A DNA stretch of 64,000 bases from Arthrobacter antibioticus. GTDB taxonomy: Bacteria; Actinomycetota; Actinomycetes; Actinomycetales; Micrococcaceae. Below, one piece after another: positions 23,635-25,980 of the stretch. Position 1 is the stretch's first letter, and every line of letters starts with the position of its first letter. Location: positions 62,001 to 126,000 of the forward strand of contig NZ_JASISQ010000004.1 in NCBI RefSeq assembly GCF_030063205.1, written 5' to 3'. The notes below the pieces were generated by a model, which made no database searches, was not told where the DNA came from, and saw nothing but the letters and a program-made list of their open reading frames with translations. Position numbers and translations under genes: made by a program.

Positions 23635-24912
23635 TTACGCCCGGACCACGGGCAGCTCTTTCCATTCCGTGGTGTACCGAGGAGACGAGAGTTCGCGCTT
23701 CATGGACCAACTCGGTGCATCTGAAAGACCCCCCACGCCGATGCCGATGGCGGTGCTGCCAAATTTATTCCGCACCTCACCCAATAAGTCCCCCACGTTG
23801 GGTTGTTCCGGCCCCACCCCAAATACGTCAAGGACTTCGGGGCCCATCACCGGCTCAAGGCCGTGGAACATGACCCCGGCACGCAGGTAGGACGCTCCCG
23901 GAATGGCACTTTCTCGCATGGCAGCTACGGCGGCGCGGATCAGCACAATGGGGTCTTGGGTGGGTGTGGCAAAGCGAATTGTTACGGCCGGAAAGCTTCC
24001 CTCGCCACCGGCGAAGCGACTGGTTCCGGCCGTAACTGTCATGCTTGCAGCCCGCATACCCTCCTCGTTCAGCTTCACCGCTCCTCGTTGTGCGTAAACA
24101 GCCATGACCTCTTCCATCTCCTGAATGGTGGTCACGGGAGTGGAAAAACTGCGAGAAAACATGATCTGCTGTTTGTCTGCCCGTTCCTGCGTATGGGCAA
24201 TGCACTCGGTGCCATTGAGCTCCATGACGGTACGCTGGAGCACCACAGAGAATTTCTTGCGGATGAGTGACGGGTCCGCGGCCTTGAGATCTGCGATGCT
24301 CTCGATGCCCATCAGCTTCAACCGCGCCGAGATTTTCCCGCCAACACCCCACAGCCCGGACGCGGGCACACGTGCCTGGATGGCGGCCACCTGCGCCTGC
24401 GGCATTGTGTCAAGAGCACAGACACCTCCGAACCCAGGATTTTGCTTGGCAATCCGATTGGCAAATTTAGCAAGTGTCTTCGTGGTGGCCACGCCGACAC
24501 AAACGGGCACTCCCACATTGCGCATGACGGCAGCGCGGATGTCATCCCCGGCAGATTGCAGCTGCGCGCCATCCCCAACTAACCCAACGAACGATTCATC
24601 AATCGAGTACACCTCCTGCCAGGTTCCGTAACGGCCCACCACCTCCATCACCCGCGCACTCAAATCCCCGTACAACTCGTAGTTGCTCGAACGCGCCACC
24701 AGCCCCCATGCTCTGGCTTGAGATTGGATCTGAAACCATGGCGTTCCCGTTGCGATCCCAAGGGCCTTGGCTTCGCCAGACCGCGCCACCACACAGCCAT
24801 CATTATTGGAAAGCACGACGACGGGGCGGTCTTCCAGCTTTGGGTCAAAGACCCGCTCGCAAGAGACATAGAAGTTGTTGACATCTACCAGCGCAATCCG
24901 TGCGTTACTCAC
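23635..24912 (-). CDS. umuC: Y-family DNA polymerase, UmuC-type translesion polymerase
   Basis: A 425-residue UmuC. The polymerase core has [19 protein letters not shown] (about 6-24, catalytic Asp), [19 protein letters not shown] (about 34-52), [11 protein letters not shown] (about 100-110, catalytic Asp-Glu) and [20 protein letters not shown] (about 136-155). The helix-hairpin-helix region is [17 protein letters not shown]. The C-terminal little-finger domain follows. It would copy damaged templates with UmuD'. Its start overlaps the NUDIX stop by four bases, so the two are translated together. umuD lies upstream of the NUDIX gene. Confidence 0.93.
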
Positions 24913-25379
24913 GGGTTTCCGTTCGTTCCAAAGCCAAAGCTGATAATCGGCGGAACTCCGGCGGTCAGATGTTCAAGCACGTAGCGTTCGTGCGGGATCA
25001 TCTCTGCTGGCAGATCGGAGAGATGGAACCATTGTAGATCCGCTGCTTTGGCGGGTTCCATGATGCGAGGCTCGCCACTCCACGCCTCACAGCTGAAGAA
25101 GAAATCTACTCGTTGGGCAAGGGTAGGACCATGGGGATGGGAGCGGTGCATGGTTGTCAATGGCAGCAAGTGTTCGGCACTCACGCTCACGCCGAGTTCT
25201 TCATGCGCTTCGCGCACTGCGGCAGCCTCAGCGGATTCGCCGGCCTCAACATGCCCGGCCGCAGCCGTAGCCCAACGCCCGTCCTGGTAGCCGGTTCCTT
25301 GGCGTAGCTGCAGCAGCACCGAAGCAGCATGGCGAAAAATCACATAACTGACCGGAATCAGGGCCAATGGTTCAGCCAT
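24909..25379 (-). CDS. NUDIX hydrolase, between umuD and umuC
   Basis: A 156-residue NUDIX protein with a complete Nudix box [23 protein letters not shown] (about 42-64), all metal glutamates present. The N-terminus [20 protein letters not shown] suits an MutT-like fold. Substrates of this group range from 8-oxo-dGTP to NDP-sugars; none can be fixed from sequence. It overlaps umuC by four bases (ATGA) and lies 156 bases after umuD, so it is embedded in the mutagenesis operon. A nucleotide-pool-cleaning role is inference. Confidence 0.9.
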
Positions 25380-25535: not shown

Positions 25536-25937
25536 CTACACGTGATGTAGACACCGGGTGACAACACCCCAAATATTTATCTCGTCAGTGGAGTCGGCAG
25601 CGATCGGGGGCAGAGGAGGGGCAGGTTCAGTGGCCAAGGAGGTGGCGCCGTCGTGCATGAGAAGACGACGGATCAGGAGCTCACCAGCAACGATCGCAAC
25701 CACCACAGACGCATCACGCGGAGTCAGGGCCCTGTCCACAATAATTTCATCGCCATCTGCGATCCCTGCTCCTGCCATGGAGTCTCCAGCCACGCGCATA
25801 ATGAAGGTGCTGGTGCGGTCTCTGATCAGGTGACGGTTGAGATCGATCCCGCCCTCAAAATAATCTTGTGCAGGGGAAGGAAAACCGGTCGGTTCATGGC
25901 TGCGGGGCTTCCGTGCGGCAGGATCCACACCAAACAC
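25536..25937 (-). CDS. umuD: UmuD-like S24 peptidase-fold protein, catalytic lysine replaced by arginine
   Basis: A 133-residue protein from GTG 25937. GFPSPAQDYFEGGIDLNRHLI (about 17-37) aligns with the UmuD cleavage-site region, with Thr-Gly in place of Cys-Gly. The nucleophile serine is in RVAGDSMAGAGIADGD (about 48-63). The segment that should hold the general-base lysine (GEFTVKKL in E. coli) reads GELLIRRLLM (about 86-95), both lysines being arginine (codons CGT CGT). The C-terminal INIWGVVTRCLHHV is typical. It heads the umuD-NUDIX-umuC unit and has an SOS-box-like site upstream. Self-cleavage may be lost or slow. Confidence 0.87.
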   Translation of the reverse strand: MFGVDPAARKPRSHEPTGFPSPAQDYFEGGIDLNRHLIRDRTSTFIMRVAGDSMAGAGIADGDEIIVDRALTPRDASVVVAIVAGELLIRRLLMHDGATSLATEPAPPLPPIAADSTDEINIWGVVTRCLHHV

Positions 25938-25949
25938 ATCACCACCGCC

Positions 25950-25980
25950 TAGAACAAAGATTCGAAAGAATTCTATCTTA
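25950..25980 (-). promoter_or_regulatory. SOS box and -10 of the umuD operon
   Basis: The minus strand over 25950-25965 reads TCGAATCTTTGTTCTA, two mismatches from the actinobacterial LexA consensus TCGAAC-N4-GTTCGA. A -10-like TAAGAT lies at 25975-25980, so LexA would sit at the transcription start. It is 13 bases upstream of the umuD GTG. Confidence 0.75.

Follow-up and report, generated by a model that had tools for sequence, protein, structure and literature searches.

UmuD self-cleavage is taken to be a step that restrains SOS mutagenesis. In E. coli, the N-terminal arm of UmuD must dock to bring the Cys24-Gly25 pair to the Ser60/Lys97 dyad, according to an excerpt of PMC5342242. A stretch of 64,000 nucleotides from Arthrobacter antibioticus, to which we refer as the window, carries a umuD gene whose product has an arginine at the position of the dyad lysine. 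We call such proteins Arg-type, and those that have the lysine Lys-type. The question that this locus raises is whether, and in what form, a UmuD of this kind can serve its polymerase.

The product of the window gene matches Peptidase_S24 (PF00717, E 3.4e-18) in a domain search and passes NF007621, the NCBIfam model of the UmuD subfamily of Pol V subunits, with 131.1 bits against a cut-off of 110. It falls below the cut-offs of the LexA model TIGR00498 (50.5 bits, cut-off 110.95; its core is preceded by 16 residues and by no DNA-binding domain) and of the HumD model NF051876 (68.1, cut-off 120). The nearest in-frame starts are GTG codons that precede the P1 codon by 13 and 16 codons, and the choice between them rests on sequence: the 16-codon start that we adopted has an MFG N-terminus and a box-to-start spacing that recur in relatives when compared by eye. 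The dyad region aligns without gaps to the solved E. coli UmuD and UmuD′ chains (1umu/8gmt). The sequence-only reading of this locus had described a UmuD homologue in which the serine of a GDSM motif is present, the catalytic lysine is replaced by arginine within a pair of CGT codons, and the cleavage-site pair is Thr-Gly, and the alignment bears out each of these points (Table 1).

Table 1. Features of the umuD locus in the window, with coordinates counted from the first nucleotide of the window
Feature	Coordinates	Strand	Basis
LexA-type SOS box TCGAATCTTTGTTCTA, 12 bases upstream of the umuD start	25950..25965	(-)	motif comparison
umuD, Arg-type, 133 aa, GTG start at 25937	25536..25937	(-)	ORF list, domain match, alignment
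N-terminal tail, 16 residues, polar, proline-containing; replaces the hydrophobic arm of Lys-type UmuD	25890..25937	(-)	sequence comparison
Thr17-Gly18, aligned with the E. coli Cys24-Gly25 cleavage site	25884..25889	(-)	alignment
S53 codon (Ser of GDSM), aligned with the E. coli Ser60 nucleophile	25779..25781	(-)	alignment, sequence
R90 codon CGT (first Arg of LIRRL), aligned with the E. coli Lys97 general base	25668..25670	(-)	alignment to 1umu/8gmt
R91 codon CGT, residue after R90	25665..25667	(-)	sequence
NUDIX hydrolase gene between umuD and umuC; 4-base overlap with the umuC start	24909..25379	(-)	PF00293, E 9.2e-20
umuC, 425 aa, IMS + IMS_C + DUF4113, DVNNFY and SIDE motifs	23635..24912	(-)	domain/motif search

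Of the two residues that make up the dyad of autoproteolytic Ser-Lys S24 proteins, the window UmuD has the nucleophilic serine (S53) and has an arginine (R90) for the general-base lysine. The Glu-Pro-Thr-Gly at its cut position departs from the consensus of an aliphatic P3 and an Ala or Cys at P1. The single lysine of the protein, K10, lies in the N-terminal tail. The folded core is free of lysine and therefore offers no stand-in for the general base, either within the same chain or from the partner chain of a homodimer, and another lysine at the dyad position, for which we looked, is excluded. A sequencing error is unlikely, since the UmuD of a second genome of the same species is identical at 133 of 133 residues (100%). 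Judged by its sequence, its partner and its control, the window protein is a UmuD that lacks two defining features of the autoproteolytic Ser-Lys class.

The order of genes on the minus strand is umuD, NUDIX, umuC. The SOS box upstream of umuD has two mismatches to TCGAAC-N4-GTTCGA and one to the variant that allows G or T at position 15. The window UmuC scores 345.7 bits with the UmuC model NF002955, which is under the model cut-off of 431. The Nudix box of the intervening gene is intact, as judged by eye. The operon had been described from the sequence as intact and SOS-controlled; the control stands, and the intactness has to be qualified, as the NUDIX gene separates umuD from umuC here and a gap of about 3–24 kb separates them in nine of the 17 same-genus genomes with an Arg-type UmuD. 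Varied genes fill these gaps (same-genus loci within L263–L269 and L272–L275, with ORFs listed for seven), and the umuD-umuC junction in the window's genus looks like an insertion hotspot. In L263 and L264, the NUDIX-umuC pair is still together though umuD is 5–6 kb off.

Ten stretches around separated umuC genes, one of which (L276) is placed solely as lying on another contig, were scanned for LexA-type boxes. A box with at most two mismatches is found within about 100 bases upstream of umuC in six of the ten (L265, L266, L267, L269, L274, L276), a three-mismatch box lies directly upstream of the NUDIX gene that precedes umuC in L263 and L264, and L268 has just a three-mismatch site farther upstream of umuC. 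The scan found no LexA-type box near the separated umuC of L272. Because the separated umuC, or its NUDIX gene, mostly has a LexA-type box of its own, both halves mostly look SOS-controlled.

To place the window protein among its relatives, we tallied the UmuD genes of 136 genomes (nearly all from the window's family), of some named genomes and of eight plasmid records, the latter out of at least 5000 matching ones. Seven rows of the alignment (LexA, weak or fragmentary) and identical cores were removed, leaving 148 rows including E. coli. As the rows were chosen by similarity to the Arg-type window protein and supplemented with a hand-picked spread of genera, the ratio of Arg-type to Lys-type rows is not a prevalence. 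Among the 147 distinct cellular and plasmid cores other than that of E. coli, the dyad is Ser-Lys in 56, Ser-Arg in 59, Ala-Arg in 26, Gly-Arg in five and Ala-Gln in one. The Arg-type set thus amounts to 90 rows, with Ser (59), Ala (26) or Gly (5) as the nucleophile residue, and the Lys-type set, with E. coli included, to 57 rows that all have Ser.

Alignment with relatives in the Micrococcaceae, which the sequence-only reading had proposed as a check, places the arginine across the clade: the 90 distinct Arg-type UmuDs belong to 11 genus groups, all of them in the window's family. Lys-type rows come from four of these genus groups, from other groups and families, and from all eight plasmids tallied; Arg-type proteins may occur on further plasmids. 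Among the matches fetched, both types were found together in at least seven of the 98 genomes that have an Arg-type UmuD. One genome that clusters with the window's genus bears the title Sporosarcina beigongshangi REN13, which seems ill-fitting to its content. A class-level search of 394 genomes gave a UmuD over the cut-off in at least four, three of which are of the window's family; the fourth (L284) has, by eye, Ser-Lys with Ala-Gly. In order-level and phylum-level samples of 149 genomes each, few UmuD-like matches lie outside the family among the matches listed. The Ala-Gln dyad belongs to a distant UmuD that adjoins UmuC in a Zixiibacteriota metagenome genome (L100); loss of the dyad may occur outside Actinomycetota as well. 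A viral control, fetched with patterns built from the Arg-type alignment, comprised 60 distinct UmuDs from 80 loci, all of which are Ser-Lys with Ala or Cys at P1.

The arginine is accompanied by the decay of the other elements of cleavage. The catalytic serine is missing in 31 of the 90 Arg-type proteins, compared to none of the 56 cellular and plasmid Lys-type proteins and none of the 60 viral ones. The arginine itself is invariant (90/90), is encoded by five different codons and is present in the Ser-less rows as well, and the core has no lysine in 56 of the 90 proteins, the window's included. The cut site was counted in the 89 Arg-type rows whose tail is of sufficient length. P3 is Val, Ile or Leu in all 56 Lys-type rows; in the Arg-type rows it is never Val or Ile and is Leu in eight. 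P1 is Ala or Cys in 56 of 56 Lys-type rows as opposed to Ala in 12 of 89 Arg-type ones. The mean hydropathy of positions P8 to P1 is 1.29 in Lys-type and −0.30 in Arg-type proteins, and the nearest in-frame starts in the window's genus mostly give an arm of about 12–17 residues. The motif GF(P/A)SPA(R/Q)DY, with which UmuD′ starts, is largely retained in Arg-type proteins, as expected if this segment still meets UmuC.

An arginine may nevertheless act as a poorer general base, with the Ser-bearing members cutting themselves slowly or at higher pH. LexA in which Lys156 is changed to Arg reportedly retains some cleavage at raised pH, and a Ser-Arg dyad would agree both with the serine in 59 of the 90 proteins, the window's among them, and with the arginine in every one. 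This reading is unlikely in our view, as most Ser-bearing members have likewise lost the consensus of an aliphatic P3 and an Ala or Cys at P1, and as the arginine persists where the serine is Ala or Gly and is, thus, not kept for catalysis there. We assign a still smaller chance to processing in trans, in which the tail would be trimmed by a Lys-type UmuD, LexA or another host protease. E. coli UmuD subunits do cleave one another in trans, as an excerpt of PMC5342242 states, and candidate proteases exist in the window's own genome, which encodes a LexA with a normal lysine and a Lys-type UmuD on two other contigs (L002 = C11 and L003 = C21). The Lys-type enzyme, however, was found in just the seven or more of 98 Arg-type genomes mentioned above, and the recognised cut site is gone, which bears on specific cutting and less on non-specific trimming. 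The two Lys-type copies of the own genome do not differ in the core or in the eight residues that precede it, and a genome of the same species (G128) carries a Lys-type UmuD on a contig of 112,311 bases. The sequence alone had left three options open for this UmuD, namely activity in the uncleaved form, slow cleavage or processing in trans, and the first of them is favoured by the comparison: the loss of cut-site residues and of the serine, the latter repeatedly, weighs against both slow Ser-Arg proteolysis as a general explanation and site-specific cleavage in trans.

A dead protease may also belong to a dying gene, that is, Arg-type umuD may be on its way to a pseudogene. Among the 17 same-genus Arg-type genomes, umuC is interrupted or fragmented in two (G052 and G113), and in G202 no umuC match scores higher than a distant Y-family relative would. 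In G052 (L270), the umuC matches stop near codon 35 and about 8.5 kb lie between the parts, and in G113 (L271) umuC is in pieces; umuD is open in both. Decay of umuD is nonetheless very improbable. There is no internal stop in Arg-type umuD among the matches listed, and the median core dN/dS (Nei-Gojobori, core dS 0.1–1.2, with pairs that are non-independent) is 0.33 for Arg-type pairs and 0.36 for pairs in which both proteins lack the serine, well below 1 and near the 0.27 of Lys-type pairs. The core of Arg-type UmuD stays under purifying selection. The tail diverges 4.4-fold relative to the core in Arg-type pairs, 3.5-fold in Ser-less pairs and 2.5-fold in Lys-type pairs.

The fixation of the arginine with varied codons and the state of the partner also contradict decay. 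Each of the 87 distinct UmuCs paired with an Arg-type protein retains both catalytic motifs; with the same patterns, the motifs are found in 39 of 45 Lys-type partners. For nine of the 90 Arg-type rows, the UmuC set has no separate entry, the UmuC being broken, outside the fetched stretch, cut by the stretch end or identical to another. LexA-type boxes are likewise retained, in most cases also at loci whose umuD and umuC are separated. The 300 bases before the P1 codon contain a box with no more than two mismatches in 12 positions in 64 of the 90 distinct Arg-type sequences and one with no more than three in 80 (Lys-type rows: 35 and 43 of 56, respectively), and shuffled stretches reach these levels in 0.9% and 9.3% of cases. 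The remaining 10 Arg-type rows have no LexA-type box within three mismatches in that interval.

The distribution of the serine losses bears on the order of events. With L100 left out, parsimony gives eight losses on the UmuD tree and six on the UmuC tree, none of them in Lys-type rows. Pure Lys-type and pure Arg-type clades have branch lengths of 17.6 and 17.9 on the UmuD tree, and if losses fell at random over branch length, the chance that all would land in Arg-type proteins is about 0.004 for eight losses and about 0.02 for six. In the rows examined, loss of the serine is confined to Arg-type proteins and L100, which has neither Ser nor Lys and is uninformative on the order. Because no Lys-type protein has lost its serine, we infer that the lysine changed to arginine first and that the serine and the cut site were lost later.

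Two or three separate origins of the arginine are possible. On the UmuD tree, built from 113 columns and with many forks unresolved, two changes are needed, and the number of clades is not decided by it. A single Arg-type clade was considered and rejected: the UmuC tree needs three parsimony changes and sets three Arg groups apart, and an AU test rejects the single clade with a p of 3.75e-5, a value to be read in light of a quick UmuC tree, long branches, groups named post hoc and possible recombination between umuD and umuC. Sign tests on independent pairs are meaningless for the Arg-type change, for which two pairs are available. We also considered an internal start in two groups (g23 and g24; L136, L164 and their relatives), in which P1 is a Met that precedes GFPSP and would yield an exact UmuD′; the upstream DNA of 15 rows of these groups displays, by eye, no obvious ribosome site before this codon.

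With the conserved arm, the cut site and the lysine lost, and the serine lost in a third of the proteins, a full-length UmuD′-like subunit is the simplest reading. We consider it probable that the window protein is a UmuD that is non-cleavable by nature and works in its uncut form as a UmuD′-like subunit, and that Pol V is governed by transcription and presumably RecA. It would be the subunit of a Pol V type translesion polymerase in a lineage without self-cleavage. Once the general base had changed from Lys to Arg, the serine, the Ala/Cys-Gly cut site and the hydrophobic docking arm would no longer have been constrained, whereas the core, the part that cooperates with UmuC and RecA, remained conserved. 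A tail that no longer docks would leave the full-length protein effectively UmuD′-like and able to bind UmuC as made, and LexA-controlled transcription, presumably together with activation by RecA, would limit the polymerase in place of the delayed UmuD-to-UmuD′ step. The order of events, the absence of cleavage and the support of polymerase activity by the uncut protein are what we infer from these comparisons.

Counting against this reading are the serine kept in 59 of the 90 Arg-type proteins, the Ala kept at P1 in 12 of 89 and the 10 of 90 rows that have no LexA-type box within three mismatches. Its steric weak point is that the 16 extra residues may interfere, since models of Pol V, in the excerpts of PMC11791011 and PMC12926913, locate the N-terminal end of UmuD′ close to the active site of UmuC. 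Two laboratory variants described in part of PMC5342242 provide a precedent for the UmuD′-like role: UmuD-3A, mutated solely in the arm, cannot be cleaved and is considered a mimic of UmuD′, and UmuD 18, which is without residues 1–17, is uncleaved and supports mutagenesis that is low but detectable. The reduced mutagenesis of the latter indicates that a UmuD with an uncut tail does not match UmuD′ in full.

Full-length UmuD may instead be locked in an uncut role, that of a 'polymerase manager' that restrains replication or mutagenesis and does not act as UmuD′. Such a role would explain a dead protease equally well, and the same excerpt reports that E. coli UmuD S60A, in an arms-down form, binds the α subunit of polymerase III and that non-cleavable UmuD proteins give little UV mutagenesis in E. 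coli (PMC5342242). The arm that defines the uncut state, however, is no longer conserved and measures mostly 12–17 residues or so in the window's genus, and a UmuC with its catalytic motifs is retained alongside, which makes this role improbable. Returning to the UmuD′-like subunit, we tentatively extend it to a wider proposal, which may well be wrong in part: the Micrococcaceae may have discarded the post-translational switch of Pol V, more than once on the UmuC tree and each time via a change of Lys to Arg followed by loss of the serine and the cut site, leaving an always-ready UmuD whose activity is set by LexA-controlled synthesis and RecA alone and in which the invariant arginine may have taken on a different function, unrelated to catalysis, in the former active-site cleft.

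A natural lineage that has lost catalytic residues and the cut site, and that retains umuD together with umuC and the SOS box, can serve as a ready comparison for the purpose of cleavage and for the question of whether Pol V can be active with the tail in place. Arg-type proteins are probably misnamed when they are automatically labelled 'autoproteolytic subunit'; the window UmuD passes the NCBIfam model that is so named. Among the matches listed in the open-licence PubMed Central literature, we found no description of an Arg-type or dyad-less UmuD.

The window UmuD and its locus share with E. coli UmuD and Pol V (UmuD′2C) the S24 core, the position of the serine, a UmuC with catalytic motifs and an upstream LexA-type box. 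They differ from them in the arginine at the position of Lys97, the lysine-free core, the Thr-Gly without an aliphatic P3, the short polar tail and the NUDIX gene that separates umuD from umuC. Acinetobacter UmuDAb, as far as excerpts describe it, is likewise a UmuD with a changed role, but it is a transcription repressor that needs its own N-terminal domain, where the window UmuD has about 16 residues before its core. UmuD-3A and UmuD 18 resemble the window protein in that the arm docks poorly and the protein is uncleaved (presumably so in the window's case) and UmuD′-like, fully or in part, as an excerpt of PMC5342242 has it. These E. coli variants were engineered in the arm only, whereas in the window's lineage the dyad itself is altered and the change is natural and inherited. 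The known natural escape from cleavage is HumD of phages P1 and P7, which starts at the UmuD′ end, according to an excerpt of PMC7092418. P7 HumD, taken for comparison from a phage search of 71 records, has an annotated LexA site upstream of its gene, as does the window umuD, and both proteins avoid the need for self-cleavage, the latter by our reading. P7 HumD, however, starts at M-GFPSP and has Ser and Lys in the dyad columns, whereas the window UmuD has a tail and an Arg; loss of the dyad and of the site with the tail kept appears to be a different route to the same end.
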